From: a virus
Reading direction: 5' to 3' (one strand)
DNA: 25,759 nucleotides
Virus record (IMG/VR): IMGVR_UViG_3300011113_000267
Location: 1 to 25,759 of that record
Part shown: piece after piece, positions 1 through 19,408 of the stretch
How the letters are laid out: each line of letters starts with the position of its first letter
Position numbering within the stretch: position 1 is the stretch's first letter
Notes under the pieces: model-generated
Told to the model about the DNA's origin: nothing
Database searches by the model: none
Seen by the model: the letters and a program-made list of their open reading frames with translations, nothing else
Made by a program: the position numbers and the translations under genes

Positions 1-1234
1 AAGTACCACCGAGGCTAATTACTGTAGATCCAACAGTTAATGAGCTATTTGTCAACGCGTTATTCGGTATATTTGTAAGCGTATTCGTGGCACCGCTAAT
101 TGACTTGTTAGTTAGTGTTTTAGTATTACTCTCGGTTAGAACAGTGCTATCAATAGCGATAGTCACAGGTGTAGAGCCGTTATAGCTCGTTCCAGACAAG
201 CCAGTACCTATGGTCAACGCGTTCGTAGCCACCGCTGTTACGGTAACAGAACCGCCTAAACTTACAGCAGAACCATTGATCGTAATTGCGCTGTTAGCCA
301 GCTGAGCATTAGAAATCGTTCCGCTCAGATCAGTAGTAGGTATTGTAGCGCTAGCTGTCATAGCCGACGTTCCGTTACCGATTACATAACCTGTCAGAGT
401 TCCGACTCCTGTTCCACCATTAGCAACATTCAAAATACCTGCTAACGTAACCGCGCCTGTTGAAGCAACGCTAGGTGTAAACCCTGTTGTTCCCGCGCTG
501 AAAGAAGTGACCCCGCCTGTAACGGAGAACGTATTCCAACCTGTATTTGTATATCCTTCGAACACTTCAGTTTGAGTGTTGTAGCGAATCATACCTGTAG
601 TCGGAACGGCTACTCTTTGAGAAGTGATTCCTCTTGGCAATAACGCAGCAGAAGTTCCAGGAAGAGTTGGATTGTCAGCAATACTGAATGTTGGGTTACT
701 ACCACCATTCGGATTCAAAATGCTAATTTGATCTGCAGTTCCTGTGAGAGTGACGTTCTGAAAATATGAGCCACCGACCAAGCTCACCATACCATTACCT
801 GATAGAGTAGCTGCTGATAGAGCTAATCCAGTCAAAGAAAGGGTTGGATTACCGCTAACACCTGAGCCGTCTGCAACGCTTAAACCAGCTGTTCCAACTG
901 CGATCGAACGATTCACTACCGTATTCACAGCCGACTTGACAATGATCCCTGTGAAGGCATTCTCTAGGCTTGCAGACGTTCCGTTCAAGAATAAACTATA
1001 TACCCCTTGAGCACCGCCATCCGAAGTACCAATACCTAAACCACCGCCAATATAACGTGAGTTAGGTAATGACGCTTGTGCACCGACAGTTAAAAATGTT
1101 TGTGTTTGTACAGGGCTGTTAGTGATGTTTGTAATAGTCGTTTGAACAGTTTGACCATTCTGTACGATAGGAACAAGTTCAGCACCTGTGATAGCTGAAG
1201 GAGCTGTCGGGAGTTGGCTTATGCGCACATTCAT
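1..1234 (-). CDS. Tail fibre / receptor-binding structural protein (3' end outside the window)
   Basis: The ORF starts at the ATG read leftward from 1234 and stays open to base 1, so at least 411 residues are present and the C-terminus is missing. The N-terminus reads MNVRISQLPTAPSAITGAEL, an opening often seen in phage tail-fibre proteins. The rest is rich in Gly, Ser, Thr and Asn with short beta-type repeats, including TLTNKSISGATNTLTNI near the cut end, a common signature of trimeric phage fibres. It probably sits at the distal end of the tail and contacts the host surface. The start codon overlaps the stop of the homing endonuclease gene (ATGA), so translation should be coupled. The assignment as fibre is by composition and repeat style; a baseplate or spike protein is possible. 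Confidence 0.7.
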   Translation of the reverse strand, partial: MNVRISQLPTAPSAITGAELVPIVQNGQTVQTTITNITNSPVQTQTFLTVGAQASLPNSRYIGGGLGIGTSDGGAQGVYSLFLNGTSASLENAFTGIIVKSAVNTVVNRSIAVGTAGLSVADGSGVSGNPTLSLTGLALSAATLSGNGMVSLVGGSYFQNVTLTGTADQISILNPNGGSNPTFSIADNPTLPGTSAALLPRGITSQRVAVPTTGMIRYNTQTEVFEGYTNTGWNTFSVTGGVTSFSAGTTGFTPSVASTGAVTLAGILNVANGGTGVGTLTGYVIGNGTSAMTASATIPTTDLSGTISNAQLANSAITINGSAVSLGGSVTVTAVATNALTIGTGLSGTSYNGSTPVTIAIDSTVLTESNTKTLTNKSISGATNTLTNIPNNALTNSSLTVGSTVISLGGT

Positions 1235-1875
1235 AGAATACCTTTAATCTTTTTCTCTCTAGCTTCTGCTCGTACTTTAATTTGCATTGCTCGATACTCA
1301 GGGTCTTTCCACAAATTTTTAATAGTTTCTTTAATTTTATTTCTGTGTGACAAAGACTTTGGACCTTTATTTATTCCTTTTAAAGCTAATGAACGAATAG
1401 CAATTGTTTCAGATGAATCTTTTCTGCCTTTGTGTGCTTTGCTAAGTGCTTCGCGGTGTGCTTTCGTTAAAGGTTTTCCCTTTTTTGCTTTTGAAATATT
1501 TTTACCCCTCTCAGGAGGAGCACTTCTACCTTTTAACGCGATAGACACTTTTCGACCTGTCTCTTTTATAGTTTCAATATCATTAACAATAGCGGGAAAA
1601 GCATGTTTATTATAAGTCGTATTTAAATTTTTTATTAATTGTTGATTTATTTTATGCTCTAAAACTCTACAGTCTTTCCAATCCCCTTTCGCTAAAATTT
1701 GACGAGTGAAATCATTAGGGCGTTTTTTATATTCAAGTTTTAAATATTTAGAACTGAACATATAACCATCATTTTCAGTTCCTTTATGAGAACCACAATA
1801 AACTTTTCCTGTCAGGTGATCTGACCAAGTGTAAACTATTGCAGGAGAAGATAAACGTTGAGTTAAATTGTTCAT
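1231..1875 (-). CDS. Putative free-standing homing endonuclease, GIY-YIG-like with NUMOD3 repeats
   Basis: The 214-residue protein opens with a degenerate GIY-YIG arrangement: VYTW at about residues 14-17, then KVYCGSHKG, then SSKYLKLEYKK and the FTRQIL segment typical of phage GIY-YIG nucleases. Residues about 115-152 hold NUMOD3-like basic repeats (GRSAPPERGKNISKAKKGK, then LTKAHREALSKAHKGRK), which bind DNA. The C-terminus contains a helix-turn-helix-like LWKDPEYRAM. Such enzymes cut an allele lacking the gene so that it is copied in. The gene is far more AT-rich than its neighbours (12 G+C in the 60 bases from 1621), which supports recent transfer. It overlaps the upstream zinc-ribbon gene and the downstream fibre gene by ATGA each, so the operon is intact. 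The family call is fairly secure; the exact nuclease class is less so because the GIY and YIG residues are diverged. Confidence 0.75.
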   Translation of the reverse strand: MNNLTQRLSSPAIVYTWSDHLTGKVYCGSHKGTENDGYMFSSKYLKLEYKKRPNDFTRQILAKGDWKDCRVLEHKINQQLIKNLNTTYNKHAFPAIVNDIETIKETGRKVSIALKGRSAPPERGKNISKAKKGKPLTKAHREALSKAHKGRKDSSETIAIRSLALKGINKGPKSLSHRNKIKETIKNLWKDPEYRAMQIKVRAEAREKKIKGIL

Positions 1876-3308: not shown

Positions 3309-3863
3309 TTAATAGTTTTTCTTAACTTGCCCACCATCTTTGCAATTCCAACGACGTAGAGAGGCTTTAGCTCTCGGTGCATCGCCTTTTGCGTTTTTTA
3401 CTACTCCCGACATTCTAGCACAGAATGATTTTTTACGACCTTTTTCTTTCTCAGTCTTAGGATTAGGAGCAGGCGCTTTTAAGTTACTTCCCGTAGCTCT
3501 ATTCGCTTTTGCTCTACCTTTCGCTGTGAGTCCTGCACCTTGACTGGTTGGCAGTTTTTCACCTCGCCCCACTGTTAGCGACAAACCGCCATCTTTTTTC
3601 TTCGCGGTTTTTGCTGAATTAATAAAATCTTGTTTACTTGGAGCGCCTTCTGCTCCTGGCTTACGCATACGCTCACCTGAGCCAGCTTTAATTCGCTCAC
3701 GTTTTGCGTGAATATTAGCGTAGAGTCCACCACCATCTTTCATAGCTGCTCGCTTAGTCGCGTAAGCAATTGCTACCGCTTGTTTTTGCGGTTTCCCAGC
3801 TTTTATTTCCGTAGAAATATTTTTGCTAAATGCCTTATCAGATTTTGATTTGATTAGTGGCAT
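3309..3863 (-). CDS. Basic small phage protein with DUF6496-like N-terminus and DUF6321-like C-terminus
   Basis: This 184-residue, very basic protein appears to join two small phage domains. Residues 1-42 (AFSKNISTEIKAGKPQKQAV, then AIAYATKRA) match the DUF6496 pattern as I remember it. Residues about 108-175 (GLTAKGRAKANRATGSNLKA, then RRKSFCARMSG in family form, and ASLRRWNC at the end) match the DUF6321 pattern. Between and after them are KDGG motifs (MKDGGGLY, KKDGGL and CKDGGQVKK at the end). The domain functions are unknown; both are common in the structural regions of aquatic phages. High Lys/Arg content suggests nucleic-acid contact inside the virion, which is inference. It is one of four KGG-type proteins in the window. 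Confidence 0.7.
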   Translation of the reverse strand: MPLIKSKSDKAFSKNISTEIKAGKPQKQAVAIAYATKRAAMKDGGGLYANIHAKRERIKAGSGERMRKPGAEGAPSKQDFINSAKTAKKKDGGLSLTVGRGEKLPTSQGAGLTAKGRAKANRATGSNLKAPAPNPKTEKEKGRKKSFCARMSGVVKNAKGDAPRAKASLRRWNCKDGGQVKKNY

Positions 3864-4195: not shown

Positions 4196-4927
4196 TTAAT
4201 ACTTGCACATTTTTCCGCCAGATTTGAAGCCACTCATACCACCACTCTTCATAGCAGTATGACCGCCATCTTTGTAGCCAGCTGGTTGCTGTTTGATCTG
4301 ACCAGTTTTCTTTGGAGCCTGTTTTGGATGGTCACCACTGCTCATATTTGAAATGAACTTTGCTGCACCGCCATTTTTATATCCAGCAGGAGGACCATTC
4401 TTAACTTTACCGCTTTTCGTGTTGAAAGACTTGGTCTGTTTTGCAGTAGACATATTGTTCAAAAATTTAGCTGCACCACCATTTTTGTAGCCACCAGCGT
4501 TGCTATTACGAACACCGCCTGTGGTTTTCTTAGGATTGACGCGAGTTGCTTCCAATCCACCAGCTAGACCGCCCATCGTATCTGGACCAGCTTTGGGTGC
4601 ACCACCATTTTTGAGACCACGATGAGCTTTAGAAGCAGGTTTGCCCTCATGTTGCTTGAGCTCCTTCTCTACTTTACCCATCTTTTTCATTTCAGCTTTA
4701 TGCATAGCTGGGGTTTCCATTTCGCCACCTTTTTTACGCATCATTGGGCGAGCCATTGGAGCAACTGCTGGGCGAGCCATACGACGACGTGGAGCAGGCA
4801 TTTCTGCTGCGGGAGCTACTGGTAAAGAACCACCCATTTGCATCTTAACCTTACCGCCTTTTTTGAGTTTTAGCTCAACAGATGGCTCGGTTGTTTTCAT
4901 TTTAGGCATTGGTTTGTATTGTCCCAT
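4196..4927 (-). CDS. Lysine/glycine-rich KGG-repeat protein
   Basis: The 243-residue protein is low in complexity and strongly basic. KGG or NGG motifs recur along its length: LKKGGKVK at 21-28, RKKGGE at 64-69, LKNGGA at 105-110, two near-identical blocks GYKNGGAAKF (146-155 and 182-191) each followed by a xxNMS sequence, and GYKDGG, MKSGG and FKSGG near the C-terminus. There is no catalytic motif, signal peptide or membrane segment. It is encoded just after the 324-aa structural gene and before two small virion-type genes, and is followed by a terminator hairpin. Basic Gly-rich repeats suit DNA binding or packing within the capsid; this is inference. It shares its core motif with three other late proteins here. 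Confidence 0.75.
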   Translation of the reverse strand: MGQYKPMPKMKTTEPSVELKLKKGGKVKMQMGGSLPVAPAAEMPAPRRRMARPAVAPMARPMMRKKGGEMETPAMHKAEMKKMGKVEKELKQHEGKPASKAHRGLKNGGAPKAGPDTMGGLAGGLEATRVNPKKTTGGVRNSNAGGYKNGGAAKFLNNMSTAKQTKSFNTKSGKVKNGPPAGYKNGGAAKFISNMSSGDHPKQAPKKTGQIKQQPAGYKDGGHTAMKSGGMSGFKSGGKMCKY

Positions 4928-9036: not shown

Positions 9037-9459
9037 TTAGATGAATGCTTTAATTTCACGAGGATCGCCTGTGACTTTGCCGATTAACTCATGGTCGTTA
9101 AAGAAAGTAAATAGAGCCTTTCCTTTAGCGCCTTTGTCATCTTCAAATTCAACTTCCCAGCGGTCACCACCCCATTTGGGTACTCGGACATACTCACCTA
9201 CAGCTGCCCAAGCTCCTTCTGGCCAAGGTTGCATATTTTCTCGCATCCTAAACGCTAAAGGTCCAATGGCGATAACTTTACCGATCATCGTGTTCCATTT
9301 TTCTGTTTCTTTTACTTCTTCTGGTATATACAGCCCTGCTGATGTTACTTTCTCTTTAACAGCTCTCAATTGAACGAGAACTCTAGCACCATAAGGTGCC
9401 ATCAAAGGATCTATTACTGGAAACGCTTCTGCAAGCGTCTGTTCGATATCATTCGACAT
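9037..9459 (-). CDS. GroES-like co-chaperonin (Cpn10)
   Basis: The 140-residue protein contains the GroES fold sequence: PYGARVLVQLRAVKEKV at 22-38, a mobile-loop-like stretch SAGLYIPEEVKETEKW at 40-55, then the strand MIGKVIAIGPLAFRM, and VGEYVRVPKWGGDRWEVEFE. The hydrophobic LYI at 43-45 corresponds to the tripeptide by which GroES binds GroEL. The insert FRMRENMQPWPEGAW is longer than the bacterial loop at that place. The ATG at 9459 has GAGGAG 10-15 bases upstream and is preferred to the TTG at 9477, which would add six residues. The gene overlaps the 62-aa gene by 11 bases. By analogy with T4 gp31, it would replace host GroES so that host GroEL can fold the phage coat protein. Its place beside scaffold and coat genes agrees. 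Confidence 0.85.
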   Translation of the reverse strand: MSNDIEQTLAEAFPVIDPLMAPYGARVLVQLRAVKEKVTSAGLYIPEEVKETEKWNTMIGKVIAIGPLAFRMRENMQPWPEGAWAAVGEYVRVPKWGGDRWEVEFEDDKGAKGKALFTFFNDHELIGKVTGDPREIKAFI

Positions 9460-9637
9460 CTTTTCGTTGCTCCTCAAGTAAATTGTTTAATACTTCTAAG
9501 GCTTTATTCAAGCCTATACTTTGACCGACCAACCGCTGATAACTTTCGAAATTGACACAGTTACCATTGAGCATGGCTTTCGCAATTTCTTGTTTTTCAA
9601 CTTCGATTCGGTTAATAAGTTCGCTAATAAAATTCAT
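9449..9637 (-). CDS. Small helical protein, conserved in phages, function unknown
   Basis: The 62-residue protein is entirely helical by composition: NFISELINRIEVEKQEIAKA, then a turn with NCVNFESYQRLVGQ, then IGLNKALEVLNNLLEEQRK. The central [FY]xxYQRLVGQ..GL..AL pattern is common to small proteins found beside phage portal and GroES-like genes. The ATG overlaps the upstream stop as TAATG, and its end overlaps the co-chaperonin start, so translation is coupled on both sides. No function is known. It is too short for a catalytic domain; it may be a small assembly factor. Confidence 0.6.
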   Translation of the reverse strand: MNFISELINRIEVEKQEIAKAMLNGNCVNFESYQRLVGQSIGLNKALEVLNNLLEEQRKDVE

Positions 9638-9915
9638 TAACGACCCCTTGCTGAACCCTTCTTAGGTATCGCGATTGCGATCATAATTCCAGGTTTCTTT
9701 GCCATACCACCCTTTTTCAAGGTTGCTACTTTAGCTTTACCAGCGTTGAAATCAACTCCAGCATTGCGTTTGTCGCCTCTGGCGGGCAGATTAGCGACTT
9801 TGGACTCAGCGATACCGCCTTTTGCAAACTTCTTGACGCTACCGCCTTTCTTCATTACATTGCCTTCGGTCATGCCCATAGCCATCTTTTTATGAGCGTT
9901 GATTGCTTCAGTCAT
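9637..9915 (-). CDS. Small basic KGG-motif protein
   Basis: This 92-residue protein is basic and probably disordered. It carries KKGGSVKKFAKGG at residues 22-34 and LKKGGMAKK at 66-74, and ends with IPKKGSARGR. A short hydrophobic run, GIMIAIAIP (76-84), is too short to be a membrane helix. The first motif matches, position for position, a segment in the C-terminal region of the giant protein (K-[KR]-G-G-x-V-K-K-x-x-K-G-G). It begins one base after the portal stop codon region and ends overlapping the next start. Position next to the portal suggests an internal head or portal-associated protein; function is unknown. Confidence 0.65.
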   Translation of the reverse strand: MTEAINAHKKMAMGMTEGNVMKKGGSVKKFAKGGIAESKVANLPARGDKRNAGVDFNAGKAKVATLKKGGMAKKPGIMIAIAIPKKGSARGR

Positions 9916-9916
9916 G

Positions 9917-12430
9917 TTAGACTCCTAAGTTAGATTGAATCTTGTTTTGCGCTTCTATAGCAGTTCTTATTTGCTCTTGCTGTAAAGCAGCAGCATCGCG
10001 CGTAAGTTCTGCTGCTTTAATCCTTTCTTCTGTCAAGTTATCTTCAGTGTTCATAAGGACTTTAGCCTGAAGTTCTGCATTTTTCTCCTGACTGATAGCC
10101 ATCATATCTTGACGCTTGATCTCAATATCGGCTTGATCTTTAACGGTCTTACGTTGGGTTTCAGCCATCTGAGTTTGAACAAGAGCCTGAATAGAAGGAT
10201 CAAGAGGTTGTTGAGCCTTCATCTTCTGTAAGGTTTCAAGCGCTTGTTGAATCAATGGAGCCATACCAGACAGCTGTTCGGCAGTATCTTGATGGACGTG
10301 TTGACCTGCAGCAGCGAGGAGCTGTTGGGCTTCCCGAATGATCGGCTCAATCTTATTGATATTGAATGGACGATCCAGAGCAGCCGAGGTATAGCCGTCC
10401 ATCTGGTTTAAGTACCAAAGGGTCAAGTGTTGTTTCAAATGCTCCAAAACGGCTGGTAAGAAGGTTGGAGCCATGATTGGGTTACCACCGTACAGTGGGT
10501 CTTTCAGGTAATCCAGATGGACTTGGAAGTGAGCGAGGTGATCCTGCATCGGGAAAGCACCTACTGGCTTACCGAGAGTCATCGCTACGTTCTCAAGTGC
10601 AGGGTTCATTTCCTTGACATTTTGTGGGTCAGGTAGAACTTCGTTAACATCTGGTAGTTTAATCTGTTTAAGGATTCGCTTTTCAACCGCAAGTCGGTTA
10701 TAAAGGTCTGGATTAGCCTGAGCTCTTGCTGCAAGGGTTTGGATTTGCGCATATCGTTGACTTTCAGCAAAAATATGGGGGTCGGAGACAGGAATTACGT
10801 CTGAATTTGATTTGAAATCAGCAGAAGTAATCTCTAAATCTTCAACAATCTCATTTTTACGCTGTTCGTCTACGTACCAGCGGTTCAAACGCGTCAAAAC
10901 CTTGAAAACTCTACGTTGCGAGTCATGAAGTCGTGCGTGGATTGACGAAAATACGGCTGCACCTTGCTCGATCAACGCTTGAGTCGTTCCTACAGGCGCG
11001 TTCGACGTGACGTCAGCGATTTTTTCTTCGCTAGTAGTGACAACCCCCTTTGCTGCATCGTTTAACCAGCCGAGAAGCTGGAAAAGAACAGGAGAAGGAG
11101 GGTTAAACGGCACTGGCATAGCGATTTTACGTACGTCATCTACTCCTGGAGCGCCTTCGATCTCCGAGACTTGCGTTGGCTCAATAGTGGTGGACTGACC
11201 TGAGATCTTTGCACCCTTGAGTTTGAGCATGGTTGGCGCTGTGTTAATGTGCGCACTATCCAATAGAGCACGCAATGCGCCAGTAAGAGCAGCAGAAAGA
11301 CCACCAATGAGGTGAGGCAGACCAATAGCGTAAGCACCGCGCCATGGAATGAACTTAAATTCAATGATCCAATCCAACTTAGTACAGGTGTCATCTCCAT
11401 CCTCCCAGTTTCTATATAGACCGACGACTGAACTCTCGTTCTCGTCGATCATTAGGATATAAGGAGCTCTGTCGCCTTTTGATTGGGTGTCGTCTTCCAG
11501 CTCTAACCAAGTGAAGATATGGAAAACTCGACGTATTCCGTCTATGTTATCGCTCTTTGAACTACGACCTTCAATCTTGTCGTTAGCCTTTTGAGGCTTC
11601 GTTTCTTCGGGAGTTTGGGAAGCGATATAAGAGTCAACATCCTTGTAGAGATTAGACTTTACACGGATATCAAACTCTTCTTGGGTAATGTCTTGAACTT
11701 CGGTAACTCGCGAAGCGGTGTAGAAATTACCTGATGCAAAGGGTAAATAGACGTTATCAATCGGTACGAACTCAGCGCATGGGCGCTTTTTCTGCTCATC
11801 ATACCAGAGTTTCAAAAATTGTGAGCCACCTAGAGGAAGCTGGGTGAGCATTTGTTCTTGCTCATCGCGATATTCCTCAATCTGCTCAGTCAATTGCCAG
11901 TTCATATAGTCGCGTTTACGTTCAGCGACTTCTACTTTTTGTTCGGTTACTTCCCCGATGATCTTAGTTCTTACGGGTCCATCGGGTGGAAATAGTTCTT
12001 TGATGGCGCGAGCTGCAAAATCAACGCAAGCCTCTGCCATGACTGGGTGAACTACTTTAGAAGCACCCATAAACTGAGCGCCTCCAGGAGCGTCATGACC
12101 TAGACCAGTACGACGCAAGCCTTCTTCGTATTGCTTGTCCCGCTCTTCGCGAGCTTGTTTGTCTTTCTCGATCAGGTCGAGATACTTGAGAGCGATCTTG
12201 TCTAGCTCCCAATCGTCAATCTTTTCAGCTAAGTTTTCGTAGAAATCAGGGTTTTCTTCTGGACCCTTCATATCGTCTAGTTTGACGATCGCGCTACCAT
12301 CGGGTAATTCTTCAACGCCAGAGTCTTCATCAAACATCTCAAATACAGACTCGTTATCTTCTAAGTTCTGATCATTCTCGACAGGTTCTACAAAGCGATT
12401 GTAGTCTTGAGGAATAGGCATTTCTGGCAT
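9917..12430 (-). CDS. Portal protein
   Basis: The 837-residue protein has the features of large podovirus-type portals. After an acidic N-terminus (about 1-75) comes SKVVHPVMAEACVDFAARAI followed by KELFPPDGPV, then MNWQLTEQIEEYRDEQEQML and LPLGGSQFLKLWYDE. PFASGNFYTASRVTEVQDI and the acidic YILMIDENES region follow. The core crown and wing are suggested by WRGAYAIGLPHLIGGLSAAL, TGALRALLDSAHINTAPTML and EKIADVTSNAPVGTTQALIE. Residues about 690-837 are long Gln/Glu/Ala-rich helices that could form the C-terminal barrel extending into the capsid, as in P22. It would form the dodecameric ring through which DNA enters and leaves. It is three bases from the giant-protein gene. Identification is strong by pattern and neighbours. 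Confidence 0.88.
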   Translation of the reverse strand: MPEMPIPQDYNRFVEPVENDQNLEDNESVFEMFDEDSGVEELPDGSAIVKLDDMKGPEENPDFYENLAEKIDDWELDKIALKYLDLIEKDKQAREERDKQYEEGLRRTGLGHDAPGGAQFMGASKVVHPVMAEACVDFAARAIKELFPPDGPVRTKIIGEVTEQKVEVAERKRDYMNWQLTEQIEEYRDEQEQMLTQLPLGGSQFLKLWYDEQKKRPCAEFVPIDNVYLPFASGNFYTASRVTEVQDITQEEFDIRVKSNLYKDVDSYIASQTPEETKPQKANDKIEGRSSKSDNIDGIRRVFHIFTWLELEDDTQSKGDRAPYILMIDENESSVVGLYRNWEDGDDTCTKLDWIIEFKFIPWRGAYAIGLPHLIGGLSAALTGALRALLDSAHINTAPTMLKLKGAKISGQSTTIEPTQVSEIEGAPGVDDVRKIAMPVPFNPPSPVLFQLLGWLNDAAKGVVTTSEEKIADVTSNAPVGTTQALIEQGAAVFSSIHARLHDSQRRVFKVLTRLNRWYVDEQRKNEIVEDLEITSADFKSNSDVIPVSDPHIFAESQRYAQIQTLAARAQANPDLYNRLAVEKRILKQIKLPDVNEVLPDPQNVKEMNPALENVAMTLGKPVGAFPMQDHLAHFQVHLDYLKDPLYGGNPIMAPTFLPAVLEHLKQHLTLWYLNQMDGYTSAALDRPFNINKIEPIIREAQQLLAAAGQHVHQDTAEQLSGMAPLIQQALETLQKMKAQQPLDPSIQALVQTQMAETQRKTVKDQADIEIKRQDMMAISQEKNAELQAKVLMNTEDNLTEERIKAAELTRDAAALQQEQIRTAIEAQNKIQSNLGV

Positions 12431-12432
12431 TA

Positions 12433-15400
12433 TTATTTCCTTAACAGTTCGTAACGCATTTGATCAATGCTCACTTTACCACCAGCATTATAAGTCGGAT
12501 TTCTTGAGCCGAGTCGATTTTTCAATTCAACGTCAGTCAAACCGCCACCACCAGAAGGTCTTGAGGATGACTTTTGGCGTTGTTCAATTTGATATTTCAA
12601 CTCTTCAGCGAATCCTGGATCTGTCAAATTGACAACAGGTTTGACAGGAGGAGTGCGGGGATGCTCGCTAGGGATATTCATCGCAGAGGGAACAGGATTT
12701 ACTTTGCCACCTTTGTTCATCTTTTTAACACGACCGCCTCGTTTAAGATCATCTTGATGTCTGAAGTTTAAGTACTCGTCTGACTTCGGAGCGATGATAT
12801 CTGCTTCTGAGCGCTCAGGATATCGTTTAGGTGATACACCAAGTTGGTCAGACCTTACACCATGGCGCAACTGAAAGTCTAGAGCAGCTTGTCCGTCGTC
12901 ATAAAAGTTTCTATTGAATTTATCGCGTTTTAAATCAGAGTATGAACGAACTCCTGTGGCTTGTTCAATGAATCCACCGCGCTTACGACCTTCTGGGGGT
13001 TCTCTATCAGCGTTGTCAAGTAAATTTTCAAGTTGACGGAAAACTTCAAAATGCCTGTCAATCAAATCTGCAAATCGATTCATCTCAGCAGTTGATGAAA
13101 GATTAAAATATTCAGGTTCATGATCACCGCTCAAAAGCATGTCGTGAATAATACCTAGATGATGCATTGCATTTTGAAGATTCAAGGTATTGACTGCAGG
13201 ATCAATTTCCCTTAATATTTCACGATATTCGTTTTGAACTTCTTCAGAGTAATCGCGCTCAAATTGAGTGATTGGGCGGTTTAATCCGTCGGTAACGATA
13301 TCGATTGGAGCACGAGGCGCTTCACCGTATCTACGCTCTAGTTCATCAATCGGGTTAACGGCTGGAGCGGGAAGCTGAGGCGCTGCATTTCCTGGAGTGT
13401 CAGGTAGCTGTTGATAACTATAGAGCAAACTTGAAGCTAGCTCGTTCATCGCAGTTGCGTACGTAGCATCACCTTCTAAACCTGTTGCGCTAGCTACTGC
13501 TGCTAACTGATTCAAACGCGAAATAAACTCGTCAGGACTTGTATCAAACCTAATACCTTCTGTCATAAGTCTGTCAAGATCTCGTTGCATTACATCAACA
13601 ATATTTTCAGGATAATTATAACTAGAGGTTTCGAGCGCGTCATCAAGAATATCACTTAACGCTTCTTGATTAGTAGCAGCTGGGCGAGGAGGATGGTCAA
13701 ATCCGTTACCTTCCATATATTGACGGAGAGCGTTATTGATTTGAGAGATACCAGCAGGGGCTTGAACATTATAGAACCGCATCACTTCCTCATCATACAT
13801 CGCGCGACCATCAGTCCTACGGATGGCTTCATTGATTGCTCCAGGAGTTATGCGTTCAGCTTGCATGATTTGATCAAATGCTCTTCTTGAACCCATCTCT
13901 TCATTCGTATATTGGTCACGATAACTAGTGATTGTTTGATCAAACTGAGGTGCTGCTTGACCACCAGCAGGTCTATAGTCAGGATCATTGAGTAATCGAC
14001 CTAACAATAAATTGGTAAAATCAACTGCGTGCCCTCTCTGCTCTTCAGTCAGGTCTCTGAACTCACTTTGACGAGCAAAAATACGATCCAAAAGTGAACC
14101 AGCTTGACGAAGCTGACCGAGCTCCATCAGCTCATTCATCTCACGAGTGATTACTCCTCTGATGTGTTCAGGAATCAGAGGTTGTTCTTCAGGCGCTTCA
14201 ATGAGAGCGGGTGCTTGATTACCGAGCCTGTTTTGAATCTGTTGAATCAAATAATTAGAAATAGTTCGCCGATACTCATTCTGAGTTCCTCGAACTGATG
14301 AAGTCGGCAATATCATTTCTATTGAGCCAGGAATATCTAACGGATTACGCTGATATTGCGCTAACGCTTCTTGCAAGGTTTCTCTATCTTCAGGCAGATT
14401 TCTGATCGAGTTGTTGATCGCTTCTGCAACTTCTTGAACAGTTTGGTCTCTGAATGCCTGATTCATAGGAACTACTTGATTAGCGATATCTCTAGGTGCA
14501 GGCATTGCGGTTTGAGCAGGTGCTGTTTCAGGCACGAAGTCTTCGCCTCTTCTGCGTCTGGAAATCTGTCTGAGATAATCTGGAACGTCAGGATGCGCCT
14601 CTTCATATTGACGCTGACCATCTGCTGGATCATCGGGATTCAAATTGTCAATCTGTTGAAGAATGTTCGCCTCAGCATAACGATCAAGTTCGCGGACTAA
14701 CACTTCTCTTTGCATCGGATTGAAGTTTTCAATAGCAATTTGAAATCTTGCTAGACGCTCGCGTATATTGATATCATCGTCAACAGTTGTTAAAGATGTA
14801 ATTAAATTTTCGTTGTTGCGAATAGCATTAGTAAATGTTCTTAGTCTCTCAGGGTAAAACTCAATGTCATCTGCCCAGAAATCTACTAATCCGTCATTGT
14901 TAAGAAGATGAACTGTACGGCTGACTAAATCTAGAACTTCATCAAGTCTGCCTTCTAGTTGCAATCCGTTGGTCAATGCTTCGCTAGACATACGCCTAAA
15001 CACATTGGGGCGATCAGATGGTTGTGTGACCACTTGGCGAGAAATATCTTGAAGCCGTGCTGTCAAGTCTTGAATGTCGTCAGCGATGTCTACCGCTTCA
15101 GGATCATCTTCACCTCGGTCACGGATGATACGATTGTATTCATCGTTGAGTTGATTGCGTCTACGTAAAAGGTCTGCGTGTGTGTCGCCGACAGGCTGTT
15201 CAAGAGCCAGTCTACGAACGTCACTCTCTAAAACGAATCTTGGAAGACCCAGACTAGGAATTGATGATGAATTGATGTTCATCAACGAGGCTATCTTGCG
15301 CTGACCATCGTTATTTGTCGTGTCTAAGATACCCCACTTGTTCAACGCATCGCCTGAACCTTTTATGATATCGGCACGAAGATTCAAATAATCTTTGACG

Positions 15401-17979
15401 TCTTCTGCGTAGTTAGCAACGCTTTCGGGTTCAGCTTTGTTTTGATATCCTGAGACATAACTGAGGTTGTACTTACCTGAGCCTTCTTTCAACATATTGA
15501 TAGTCACGACAGGTAAACCTGTTGCATTGTCGCGCACGTGAGCGGTACGTTGACCACCTTGTAAAACATTTTTCATGAAGCTTGAAGCTAGTTTTCTGTC
15601 ACCGCGATCTTTTCCAGTTGCAGGATCAACAGGGTAAGAATAGTTATAACGCTCACCGCTGAACGGATTGATTCCTGGATGCGGTGCGTCACAACCTGCA
15701 ATGCAGTGGTCAAGCACCATTCCGTCAAAGCTGATCTGGCGACGGATAGCATCTTCGTTAGACTTTTCAGTAAGCTCAAGTACGGAAGAGTTCTTGAAGC
15801 GAAGCTCAGGAGGAATTTTAGACAGAGTCTCTTGAGCGTAATCGTTTATCTTCGCCATTCCTTTGCGCGATTCAGCTTCTTTGATCGTTTCTTCTTTGAT
15901 ACGAGGCTTGGTCAGTTGTTCGATGATCTTGTCAATCGAGGTCATCGGTTTGCCTTTTTCGTTCAGAGGAATACGACCCGACATGATATTCTTAACGATC
16001 ATCTCAGCGAGGAACGGAATGCCGAGTTCACCGAGTTCACGCGACTTGACGTTGAACATCTGTGCGGTGTCAGGAGTCTTCTCAAGATTCGGGAAGAACT
16101 GTTTCTCAGCAAACGGAATAGTTCTCTTGAATTCTTTGGCGAGTGTTGGTGAGTATGCCACGTCGCTGATGGTTTCGTATGCGTTGGCTAACCTGAAGTT
16201 CTCGAGCTGCTTTTTGCTCTGTTCGATCTTGTCGATCAGGGTGTTCATCGGGTTTGTCAGTGCGCGATACTTAGCGCCTGTCTCGGTTGGATTACGAGCG
16301 GGATCTGGTTCGTCAGGCATTTCAACACGATGAAGGTCGCGGAGTTCGCTCTTTTGACGATTGAGATCGTTCAATTGAGTCTGAAGGTCTTTGACTTCGG
16401 TCTCTTTTTGAACGATGAGCGGATACATCTCGCCACGAGGATTGAAACCTGCCTTAGCGCGTTCTTTACCTAGATCGTCAAGTTCACCGCTGAATGCACC
16501 TCGAGATGATTCAAACTTCTTCATCATGTCAAGAAGTTCTTCCTTGGGCGCCATCGTGATACCGCGCTTAGCGAGCTCCATCTGTGGACCTTGTGAGGTG
16601 CCAATGTACTTAGCGATATCCTTTTTGAATGTTCCCTCGAGATAATCCTTTGCTGCCTGAGCACGACGCATGTACTCTTCTTTGGTAGGCGGGGTAATAC
16701 GCTTGATGAATTCATCGCGGGAGAGCTCGGGCATCAGATCTTTCTGTAGAAGTTGAAGCTCGAGTTGTTCAACATTCTCCTCGTGGGCGCGACGCTCTTC
16801 GTCAGTCTTCAGATCTTTACGAGGTTTGTTCTTCTGCGCGTTGTATTCGTTGATCAATTGATCGCGTTCGTTTGCGACGGACTCAATTGCGGACAGCGCT
16901 TCGGGCGAACGAGCGAAGTCAGACAGCATATTGATTTGTTGTAGAGCGAACTCTTTCTGATTGAATCGATTAGTGTAGGCTTCTACCGCAGCACTGCCAT
17001 CTGGCGCGTCGGGGAACATCTCATTGATCTTCTTCTGAGAGAAGGTTCTCCATGCATTTTCCAGCGGTTTGGGCGCGTCTCTGACTGCTGCGTTGTAGTA
17101 CTCGGACGAGGTGTTGTGTGGGTAGTCGGACTCAGTATACGGAACGATATCCTGTATGATGTTCTGAACAGTCCTGACTTTTCTTGGGGTGTCGCCATAC
17201 TTTGCGGTCGGCAGATCGGTTGGGTCGATCATCTGCCCGACGTTGGCTGGGCGAACAGCATACATACGAGTCTGCGGGCTAACGACGTCAGGGATTCCAG
17301 GAATGGGCGACAGACCTTGCATCTCGCGACGTGCCATGACGTCACCGATCTCATCGAAGAGACCTTGCGTACGAGCACCGAGAGTGGGTCCACCGAAGAC
17401 GCTCTCACGACGGAGACCTTCTTGCGCAGCACGGAAGTCTTCAGGAATGTTACGGATCTCACGACCTGATTCGATTGCACGACCACCCATGACTCTTACG
17501 TCATCGGGTGAAAGGAATGGGCGACGCTCAAGACCAAAGGCGCGACGTGGTACGTAGAACTCAGCGAGTGGACCGACTCCCATCTCGGATCCTGTCACGA
17601 CTTGCGGAAGGCGGGAGACTCCCTCGAGAACTTCTTGCCCCATCTTCGACGTGGGTGTGTATTGAATCGCTTCAGCAACTTTGGGGAAGCCTGTCTCTTT
17701 TGCGACGGCTGCTGGGAAAGAACTGATCATGCCAAGTGCAGCTTGCGGTATCGCGCTCAGTCCGAGCCGATCAGCAATCGCTTGCGGCACGTTGGTTGCC
17801 GTGCTGGCTGGCTTTGGTGGAGGCTTGGCGATGTACGTCTGAGGAACTTCGGACGCGACGTAAGGAACGTCAGATCCTCCTGGACGAAGAGGCATGATGC
17901 CTTTCTTGGCGAGCTCGTACTTCATCTCATCAAGAGCTAGATCGTCAGGAATGTATTCACCGAACTCGTTATATGGCAT
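12433..17979 (-). CDS. Giant multidomain protein with PcfJ-like segment and C-terminal KGG motifs; possible polyvalent or ejected virion protein
   Basis: At 1848 residues this is by far the largest protein here and it lies between TerL and portal, where no such gene is usual. Residues 17-26 (DEMKYELAKK) match the last ten residues (DQMRYELLRK). Residues about 55-110 contain Ala/Gly-rich amphipathic segments. Residues about 345-620 are coiled-coil-like and highly charged. Residues about 745-870 resemble the PcfJ family pattern: DHCIAGCDAPHPG (His758, Cys759), a glycine then RTAHVRDNATGLPVVTINM, YNLSYVSGYQNKAEPESVAN. The rest is helical with many short domains. Near the C-terminus are RKRGGF, KRGGRVKKMNKGGK and YNAGGKVS. 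No polymerase, protease or lysozyme motif is evident. Large composite proteins of this sort can travel with phage DNA into the host (polyvalent proteins). Its start overlaps the TerL end by 11 bases. Identity as one gene is secure; function is not. Confidence 0.75.
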   Translation of the reverse strand: MPYNEFGEYIPDDLALDEMKYELAKKGIMPLRPGGSDVPYVASEVPQTYIAKPPPKPASTATNVPQAIADRLGLSAIPQAALGMISSFPAAVAKETGFPKVAEAIQYTPTSKMGQEVLEGVSRLPQVVTGSEMGVGPLAEFYVPRRAFGLERRPFLSPDDVRVMGGRAIESGREIRNIPEDFRAAQEGLRRESVFGGPTLGARTQGLFDEIGDVMARREMQGLSPIPGIPDVVSPQTRMYAVRPANVGQMIDPTDLPTAKYGDTPRKVRTVQNIIQDIVPYTESDYPHNTSSEYYNAAVRDAPKPLENAWRTFSQKKINEMFPDAPDGSAAVEAYTNRFNQKEFALQQINMLSDFARSPEALSAIESVANERDQLINEYNAQKNKPRKDLKTDEERRAHEENVEQLELQLLQKDLMPELSRDEFIKRITPPTKEEYMRRAQAAKDYLEGTFKKDIAKYIGTSQGPQMELAKRGITMAPKEELLDMMKKFESSRGAFSGELDDLGKERAKAGFNPRGEMYPLIVQKETEVKDLQTQLNDLNRQKSELRDLHRVEMPDEPDPARNPTETGAKYRALTNPMNTLIDKIEQSKKQLENFRLANAYETISDVAYSPTLAKEFKRTIPFAEKQFFPNLEKTPDTAQMFNVKSRELGELGIPFLAEMIVKNIMSGRIPLNEKGKPMTSIDKIIEQLTKPRIKEETIKEAESRKGMAKINDYAQETLSKIPPELRFKNSSVLELTEKSNEDAIRRQISFDGMVLDHCIAGCDAPHPGINPFSGERYNYSYPVDPATGKDRGDRKLASSFMKNVLQGGQRTAHVRDNATGLPVVTINMLKEGSGKYNLSYVSGYQNKAEPESVANYAEDVKDYLNLRADIIKGSGDALNKWGILDTTNNDGQRKIASLMNINSSSIPSLGLPRFVLESDVRRLALEQPVGDTHADLLRRRNQLNDEYNRIIRDRGEDDPEAVDIADDIQDLTARLQDISRQVVTQPSDRPNVFRRMSSEALTNGLQLEGRLDEVLDLVSRTVHLLNNDGLVDFWADDIEFYPERLRTFTNAIRNNENLITSLTTVDDDINIRERLARFQIAIENFNPMQREVLVRELDRYAEANILQQIDNLNPDDPADGQRQYEEAHPDVPDYLRQISRRRRGEDFVPETAPAQTAMPAPRDIANQVVPMNQAFRDQTVQEVAEAINNSIRNLPEDRETLQEALAQYQRNPLDIPGSIEMILPTSSVRGTQNEYRRTISNYLIQQIQNRLGNQAPALIEAPEEQPLIPEHIRGVITREMNELMELGQLRQAGSLLDRIFARQSEFRDLTEEQRGHAVDFTNLLLGRLLNDPDYRPAGGQAAPQFDQTITSYRDQYTNEEMGSRRAFDQIMQAERITPGAINEAIRRTDGRAMYDEEVMRFYNVQAPAGISQINNALRQYMEGNGFDHPPRPAATNQEALSDILDDALETSSYNYPENIVDVMQRDLDRLMTEGIRFDTSPDEFISRLNQLAAVASATGLEGDATYATAMNELASSLLYSYQQLPDTPGNAAPQLPAPAVNPIDELERRYGEAPRAPIDIVTDGLNRPITQFERDYSEEVQNEYREILREIDPAVNTLNLQNAMHHLGIIHDMLLSGDHEPEYFNLSSTAEMNRFADLIDRHFEVFRQLENLLDNADREPPEGRKRGGFIEQATGVRSYSDLKRDKFNRNFYDDGQAALDFQLRHGVRSDQLGVSPKRYPERSEADIIAPKSDEYLNFRHQDDLKRGGRVKKMNKGGKVNPVPSAMNIPSEHPRTPPVKPVVNLTDPGFAEELKYQIEQRQKSSSRPSGGGGLTDVELKNRLGSRNPTYNAGGKVSIDQMRYELLRK

Positions 17980-19408
17980 ACGGATTCACTCTGGGTGGTT
18001 TAGTGTCGTCGACATAATCATCTGAGTTGTCAACGATATAGTCGATGACCAAGAAGCCAAGATCCCTCAGGATGCGTAGAGCCTGAGTAGTCGAGTCCAC
18101 AAGGTCGTCGTGACGAACTTCGGGGAAGGCGCAAATTTGATTGATCAATGGATCTACCCAATCTCGTGCGTGTCCTGCGTTGACTGTTGATTCAGGTAAG
18201 TATACGCGACCTCTCTGGATAATGGGGGAAATAATATTGAGTCGCATCATTTTATCTGCTTGACCAGGATTGTACGAGCGCACAGGTAAGCCAGCGCGTT
18301 GTAAGTCCTGAATGAGGGATATCCCTGCCGACTTGTCCTCGATCAGGATCATGTCGACCTTCTTTCCCACACCGAACTCGTTCTCGTCTCCGTAGATGGC
18401 GCTGTACTCCTCGATGACTCGTGGGCGCAGATCAGGGTACTGAAGGTATTCGGTCCAGCAGTCAATGAGCATGACCGACATGGCTTTGTCCTCGTTCGGC
18501 TTGAAGACTCCCCAGACCGTACAAGCGGTCGGGTCGTTCTTCGTCTTGTCCGAGGTCGCGCAGTCATACGACTGAACGATATACTCGAAACGAGGCAGAG
18601 CGCGGTCGGCTGGCCAAAGTTTGAACCAATCGCGCTTGACAACGCCAGACTCTTCTGGGTCGATGATCTCAGCGTAGATCTCCTGCCGACCGATGTTCGT
18701 GCCCTCGTATTGCATGATCTGATCACGAAACGTGGGCGCGAGGTTATTGATGTTGTCAAACGTAGACGCGGTCGTGTAGATGACGTCTTCACCATCGCGG
18801 TCGACGAGGTCAATGATCAATGGTTTGGGCTTCGGTGTCGTGGTACAGATGATCTGTGGGCGCGACCCGAGACGCATGCCGAACTGTAGCATGTCCCACG
18901 CGTCGTCTAGGTAATCCCAAGCAGCGAGCTCGTCACACCAACCTCCGTGGAATTGTGGTCCGCGGAAGCGGGAGGGTTCAGACGCAGCAATGCCTTTGAT
19001 CAGAGAGCCATTGACTAACTTGAGCTCGTGCTGGGATTTGTTATAGCCGTTGTTCTCGACAATGATCTCGCGCGGTATAACGCTGAGTAGTCCCGAGTCC
19101 CCCTCGAAGCAGACGTCCCTGACGTCGCCAGAGGTGGGCGCGGAGACGAGCCAGCGCGTTCCTGGATTGCTCCACGCTTGCCACCAGAGCCATTCTGAAG
19201 CACAGCGCGTCTTGCCTGCACCGCGCCCAGCGAGGAGTAGCCACACAGTCCACCACTCTCCCGCAGGTTCTATCTGATGCTTGCCCGCGGAAGCGAGCCA
19301 CTTGAGGCGAGCCTTCATTGCTGCGCGATGAGACTCAGGGAGAACGCTGAGATCTGGACCAGATTGGATCTTGGTCGCGATCTTTTGCGCGAACTCTTCA
19401 GAGATCAT
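17969..19408 (-). CDS. terL: Terminase large subunit (TerL)
   Basis: The 479-residue protein has both enzyme halves of a large terminase. The ATPase half has Walker A GRGAGKT (61-67), Walker B WCDELAAW (157-164, Asp159 and Glu160) and the coupling motif TTTP (189-192). The nuclease half has a RNase H-type acidic set: Asp282 in QSYDCATSDKTKNDPT, Glu357/Asp358 in MILIEDKSAG, and Asp434/Asp435 in RHDDLVDSTTQAL. It pumps DNA through the portal into the prohead and cuts concatemers. The ATG at 19408 overlaps the TerS stop as ATGA, so translation is coupled. The length is normal for the family. This is the most secure gene in the window. Confidence 0.95.
   Translation of the reverse strand: MISEEFAQKIATKIQSGPDLSVLPESHRAAMKARLKWLASAGKHQIEPAGEWWTVWLLLAGRGAGKTRCASEWLWWQAWSNPGTRWLVSAPTSGDVRDVCFEGDSGLLSVIPREIIVENNGYNKSQHELKLVNGSLIKGIAASEPSRFRGPQFHGGWCDELAAWDYLDDAWDMLQFGMRLGSRPQIICTTTPKPKPLIIDLVDRDGEDVIYTTASTFDNINNLAPTFRDQIMQYEGTNIGRQEIYAEIIDPEESGVVKRDWFKLWPADRALPRFEYIVQSYDCATSDKTKNDPTACTVWGVFKPNEDKAMSVMLIDCWTEYLQYPDLRPRVIEEYSAIYGDENEFGVGKKVDMILIEDKSAGISLIQDLQRAGLPVRSYNPGQADKMMRLNIISPIIQRGRVYLPESTVNAGHARDWVDPLINQICAFPEVRHDDLVDSTTQALRILRDLGFLVIDYIVDNSDDYVDDTKPPRVNPYAI

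Follow-up and report, generated by a model that had tools for sequence, protein, structure and literature searches.

Introduction

Phage polyvalent proteins are typically encoded near virion genes, according to Iyer et al. 2017 (PMC5512222). In bacteriophage T4, internal proteins are targeted by propeptides of 10–19 residues, and Alt undergoes processing at its two termini (PMC9026906). The N-terminal 30 residues of the 250-kDa DarB protein of P1 suffice for its targeting (PMC9024508). Neither polyvalent proteins nor capsid targeting sequences are new as such.

Here we describe an 1848-residue protein encoded between TerL and portal in a stretch of viral DNA of 25,759 nucleotides (the window). 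It resembles polyvalent proteins in being large and encoded near virion genes and in its apparent composition from several modules. The proteins that occupy the same interval in related phages (its slot-mates) carry ART-PolyVal and LPD23, which are Pfam families named after the polyvalent class, whereas in the window protein the PcfJ-like module alone is recognisable. Neither a fixed TerL-portal slot nor a shared terminal tag was found in the passages of PMC5512222 that were searched. Short terminal peptides common to putative head cargo are shared with the T4 capsid targeting sequences (CTS) and Alt. However, the tag described here differs from the T4 CTS in sequence, stands at both ends, occurs also internally in slot-mates and often comes after a GG motif. 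The likeness to DarB, an accessory head protein with a targeting signal within its first 30 residues, lies in the very large size and in a putative N-terminal targeting signal, but BLAST gave no N-terminal consensus for the P1 Dar proteins (PMC9024508), whereas here a consensus is common to unrelated cargoes. PcfJ-like proteins (PF14284; WJZ48068 of DSL-LC04, Listeria phage LP-064) share a homologous module of about 500 residues with an HC, RD, G.P and G..N core, which in WJZ48068 lies in the same TerL-portal slot; the core of the window protein has diverged so far that it misses the Pfam cut-off, and the protein also contains additional modules and a long helical insertion. In the literature searched, which covered few subscription journals, we found no description of a fixed cargo slot between TerL and portal whose unrelated cargoes share a tag.

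Results

A large gene between TerL and portal

The large open reading frame pointed out in a sequence-only reading exists and lies on the minus strand of the TerL-portal interval (Table 1); the plus strand across the same positions is full of stops. TerL, this gene and portal form one operon, with an 11 nt overlap to TerL and a 2 nt gap to portal. The gene is real, since it is covered by homologues at 65–100% identity and has a dN/dS of 0.264 against L001 over 1723 codons and 64 distinct family members. The window is probably a fragment, because open reading frames run off its end and related contigs measure 53–60 kb. The protein had no direct match in Pfam, PHROGs or PADLOC and no relative in 50,697 phage records (tblastn); its profiles found no credible relative among PDB sequences, and no RNA family was found in the window. 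The head operon also contains a GroES-like co-chaperonin gene (9037–9477, minus strand), annotated so in relatives. Among the tail genes, positions 1231–1875 (minus strand) look by eye like a GIY-YIG homing endonuclease.

Table 1. Positions of the gene, its neighbours and the parts of its product in the window.
Feature	Position	Strand	Basis
Slot protein, 1848 aa (PcfJ-family, candidate polyvalent cargo)	12433..17979	-	ORF and relatives
TerL, upstream neighbour	17969..19408	-	Pfam Terminase_6N 1.6e-23
Portal, downstream neighbour	9917..12430	-	phrog_1216 3.5e-16; 59% to MW202545 head-to-tail connector
N-terminal tag, residues 12-26, DDLALDEMKYELAKK	17902..17946	-	Family count, enrichment, dN/dS
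N-terminal module, residues 72-361	16897..17766	-	Iterated profile matches L013, L014, L072, L033; 69 IMG/VR loci
PcfJ-like module, residues 426-930	15190..16704	-	Iterated profile, hhalign, Foldseek
Predicted long helical hairpin, inserted in comparison with canonical PcfJ modules, residues about 519-607	16159..16425	-	Alignment, model
PcfJ core, residues about 754-870 (VLDHCIAG...RD..TGLPVVTI...SGYQN)	15370..15720	-	Alignment; model
Hypervariable middle, residues 931-1660	13000..15189	-	Homologues in closest relatives only; dN/dS mostly 0.25-0.45
KGG-bearing tail, residues 1661-1822	12514..12999	-	Sequence
C-terminal tag, residues 1831-1848, NAGGKVSIDQMRYELLRK	12436..12489	-	Family ends, synonymous-only differences
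Small KGG-rich protein (92 aa), next gene after portal	9637..9915	-	Sequence

Selection was analysed by comparing the window sequence with L001. The dN/dS was 0.054 in codons 1–60, only about four of which overlap TerL, 0.069 in portal and 0.082 in TerL. For the PcfJ module it was 0.199 and for the N-terminal module 0.256, the middle reached 0.446, and most of the gene beyond the first 60 codons lay at 0.20–0.45. The last 18 codons carried three synonymous and no nonsynonymous differences. Low dS near residues 1161–1250 and in the C tail suggests that recombination took place there.

The TerL-portal interval is variable

The interval was compared in 80 IMG/VR loci and the named portal relatives, which gave 73 contigs with both TerL and portal, a sample skewed toward relatives of the query portal. 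The gap was below 200 nt in 22 contigs, 200–2000 nt in 14 and at least 2000 nt in 37, with a maximum of 7 kb. The expectation that portal usually comes directly after TerL holds for only part of this lineage. The named portal relatives were MW202545, Caulobacter phage RW, Roseobacter phages CRP-901 and CRP-902, DSL-LC04, 023Pt_psg01 and the Pelagibacter phages HTVC027P and HTVC023P, with zero, one or two large genes in the interval. No large gene was present in CRP-902 and a tRNA gene alone in RW; the slot encodes an 825 aa protein annotated as PcfJ-like in DSL-LC04, an 890 aa protein in MW202545 and two proteins (483 and 892 aa) in HTVC027P. HTVC027P is a cultured phage, and its slot proteins gp41 and gp42 are without homology to the family of the window protein.

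Pfam detected ART-PolyVal in slot proteins L053 (3e-23), L036 (2e-21) and L034 (1e-20), and also in L028, L022 and L025. LPD23 was found in L059 and L019 (best 6e-9), with L025 just under the cut-off; PcfJ was over the cut-off in L010, L026, L027, L059 and L076 (one at 5e-9), GP88 was found in L048, L038, MW202545 and L034 (best 4e-20) and ASCH in L048 and L034. L025 also showed a metallopeptidase-like DUF6782 under the cut-off, and L013 showed DUF6973. Some slot-mates are multi-domain (ASCH, ART and GP88 in L034; LPD23 and PcfJ in L059). These domains are polyvalent-protein domains by name or, in our own reading, by the company they keep. Slot proteins L040, L041, L043, L044 and L084 form a second slot type with N-terminal repeats (LKTPxQxLLEEAG), which may be another tag and may resemble the T4 targeting peptide.

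Architecture of the family

The N-terminal module, with which the family was collected, is followed by the PcfJ-like module of about 500 residues and a hypervariable middle, and a short tag lies near both ends. In full-length members, the part behind the PcfJ module measures 260–1471 residues. On contigs that include the neighbours, the gene stands directly after TerL or about 1 kb on, and portal lies a few nucleotides downstream. A scan of bacterial genomes found no relatives of the N-terminal module, and so no host was inferred from it.

The same core module was observed in another phage lineage, in L134 and L143 (7641 onward), where it comes after a DNA ejection protein gene. The upstream gene in L143 encodes this DNA ejection protein (phrog_4287, 1.7e-7, PHROGs), and the core homologue follows large genes in both records, in which the lineage TerL was not found. 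These core homologues are without canonical tags and have different ends (RRHPELAEMQY.YGG).

The PcfJ-like module

A PcfJ-like segment had been suspected, and it was borne out by iterated profiles, hhalign, a 27-sequence alignment and AlphaFold/Foldseek. Iterated profiles from residues 420–720 and 720–940 reached each of the five slot proteins with a Pfam PcfJ match (E 1e-20 to 1e-66). A reverse profile from these five proteins matched L014 (4.5e-21), L013 (4e-13) and L033 (3e-8), all three related to the window protein by blastp. The hhalign comparison gave 98.85% (E 4e-17), with the aligned part lying upstream of the core. The window protein did not match PF14284 at the gathering score. The 27-sequence alignment of the core gave HC...RD..G.P..TI...G..N with invariant C, R, G, P, G and N; the core His is missing in some family members (DVC). 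The window protein had no match to an ejection-protein family in PHROGs.

The AlphaFold model of residues 60–975 had a mean pLDDT of 78, with values that mostly exceed 80 beyond about residue 290, and the core was modelled as beta-beta-beta-alpha. Foldseek matched the model to viral PcfJ-like proteins (5e-11 and 6e-7) and to an uncharacterised phage homologue (1e-43). The long coiled-coil-like parts noticed earlier correspond to predicted long helices (the insertion listed in Table 1 and residues about 682–705) that are compatible with a coiled-coil hairpin. Against PDB, two AlphaFold models mainly matched GNAT acetyltransferases, with E values of 0.02–0.05 at best and TM scores (target) of about 0.36–0.44. 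GNATs bind CoA at the loop between the third strand and the next helix, and the invariant G..N of the PcfJ core lies in the modelled loop after the third strand, ahead of the helix. To our knowledge PcfJ has no known activity, and we treat this weak predicted resemblance as a lead.

The terminal tag and the KGG motifs

A tag of nine residues lies near both ends of the window protein (ALDEMKYEL and SIDQMRYEL). By pattern, the N-terminal tag was present in 58 of the 63 5'-complete family members. The C-terminal tag was present in 30 of the 33 3'-complete members (ends read directly, the TTDQM variant included), the exceptions being L072, L134 and L143.

With a position matrix built from the tags of this family only, we scanned the remaining proteins of the loci and compared the matches with those in shuffles. 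There were 33 matches in 42 kaa of other slot proteins, compared to 2.65 in shuffles (maximum 6), an enrichment of about 12-fold; these are not 33 independent events, because some slot families share homologous domains. Observed and shuffled matches were 3 vs. 4.55 in downstream genes, 4 vs. 2.25 in upstream genes, 2 vs. 2.4 in TerL and 4 vs. 1.65 in the +1 to +3 genes. Portal proteins exceeded the shuffles (19 vs. 8.4); part of this excess comes from a conserved PDLDQMLF-like helix, and other matches are scattered. A separate regular-expression count gave 47 tags in slot proteins vs. 6.2 in shuffles. Many tags come after a GG motif ([K/A]GG.V), and tags also occur between domains of multi-domain slot proteins, for example right behind ART in L034, L036 and L053. 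By pattern, the tag was found in 48 of the 67 large-slot contigs, and about a quarter were without it. As with the T4 CTS, a short terminal peptide is common to otherwise unrelated slot cargo, and the tag looks like an undescribed loading label.

Two candidate explanations of the tag were rejected. A membrane-type amphipathic helix had no hydrophobic moment above background. The small KGG/HKR protein after portal, considered as a partner of the tag, was present in 35 of the 49 large-slot but also in 4 of the 17 empty-slot contigs, a distribution confounded by kinship.

The C-terminal KGG motifs described earlier are present, and three other genes of the window carry them too. These KGG-rich genes belong to the structural module on the minus strand (the post-portal gene of Table 1, 4196–4927 and 3309–3863). 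The 243-aa protein among them starts with MGQYKPMPKMKTTEPSVELKLKKGG, a start common to many relatives. The KGG stress-repeat family PF10685 had no Pfam match in the window protein or in the slot proteins searched.

Discussion

The 1848-residue protein is probably an accessory polyvalent cargo that is packaged in the head, injected, and equipped with terminal capsid-targeting signals, by analogy with the T4 CTS and P1 DarB. The earlier suggestion of a polyvalent protein is backed by the ART-PolyVal, LPD23, PcfJ and GP88 domains of the slot-mates and by its own PcfJ-like module, which stands beside modules without a recognised family. The assignment to this class is drawn partly from the slot-mates, since the window protein has one recognised module only and no direct Pfam match. 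The phages that carry the gene have portal-terminase packaging, and it lies between their virion genes. From the operon position, the terminal tags, the purifying selection on the N-terminal tag and the second lineage, we infer that the protein enters the host with the DNA. It would be made late, together with TerL and portal, a timing suggested by the shared operon. It might then be loaded into the procapsid through its two end tags and released into the host along with the DNA, where the PcfJ-like module and the hypervariable middle may act on host or defence targets. The TerL-portal interval would be a slot for cargo, where such proteins are exchanged among phages of this lineage and the tag is kept.

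Many relatives have the same TerL and portal but not the gene, which makes a purely structural head protein unlikely. An internal protein of the core, conduit or tape-measure kind, needed for building or opening the virion and not acting as an effector, would agree with the large size, the long predicted helices, the position in the head operon and the L143 homologue that comes after DNA-ejection-type genes. However, 22 of the 73 relatives whose TerL and portal are related, CRP-902 among them, have neither the gene nor a replacement, the middle is wholly different in length and sequence among members, and slot-mates carry ADP-ribosyltransferase and other enzymatic domains; we therefore regard a structural or ejection role as improbable.

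A late cytoplasmic protein that never enters the virion, acting in host takeover, superinfection exclusion or packaging regulation, also seems rather unlikely. Its tag would be a regulatory or chaperone-binding element, for example for the GroES-like protein, whose gene is indeed in the same operon. Against this, the tags are confined to the slot and are not spread over large phage proteins, and phage polyvalent proteins are read as virion cargo from their nearness to virion genes (PMC5512222). It is very unlikely that the tags have no role in the protein and are remnants of homologous flanks for recombination of slot genes. They do stand at gene ends beside TerL and portal, where an exchange of cargo must recombine, and dS is low at the two regions named above, but tags are also internal in multi-domain proteins, their DNA differs by synonymous changes, and the tag is conserved as a peptide, with the N-terminal dN/dS of about 0.05.

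Beyond the preferred reading of an injected cargo protein, a bolder proposal, which we hold to be a long shot, is that the tag is a general capsid-loading code of this phage lineage, the slot a plug-in site for effectors and the PcfJ core a GNAT-like acyltransferase modifying a host or defence target. If such a code were true, any cargo fused to the tag would be packaged and delivered.

The capsid targeting signals known so far belong to a few phages of E. coli, with no consensus across the P1 Dar proteins. The tag of nine residues suggests how large proteins may be selected into the head, a hypothesis that can be tested. With the slot, one odd gene becomes a locatable class, and the TerL-portal interval may be read for host-takeover cargo in this mostly uncultured aquatic phage group. 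For this lineage, sequence would then suffice to answer which phage proteins enter the host along with the DNA.
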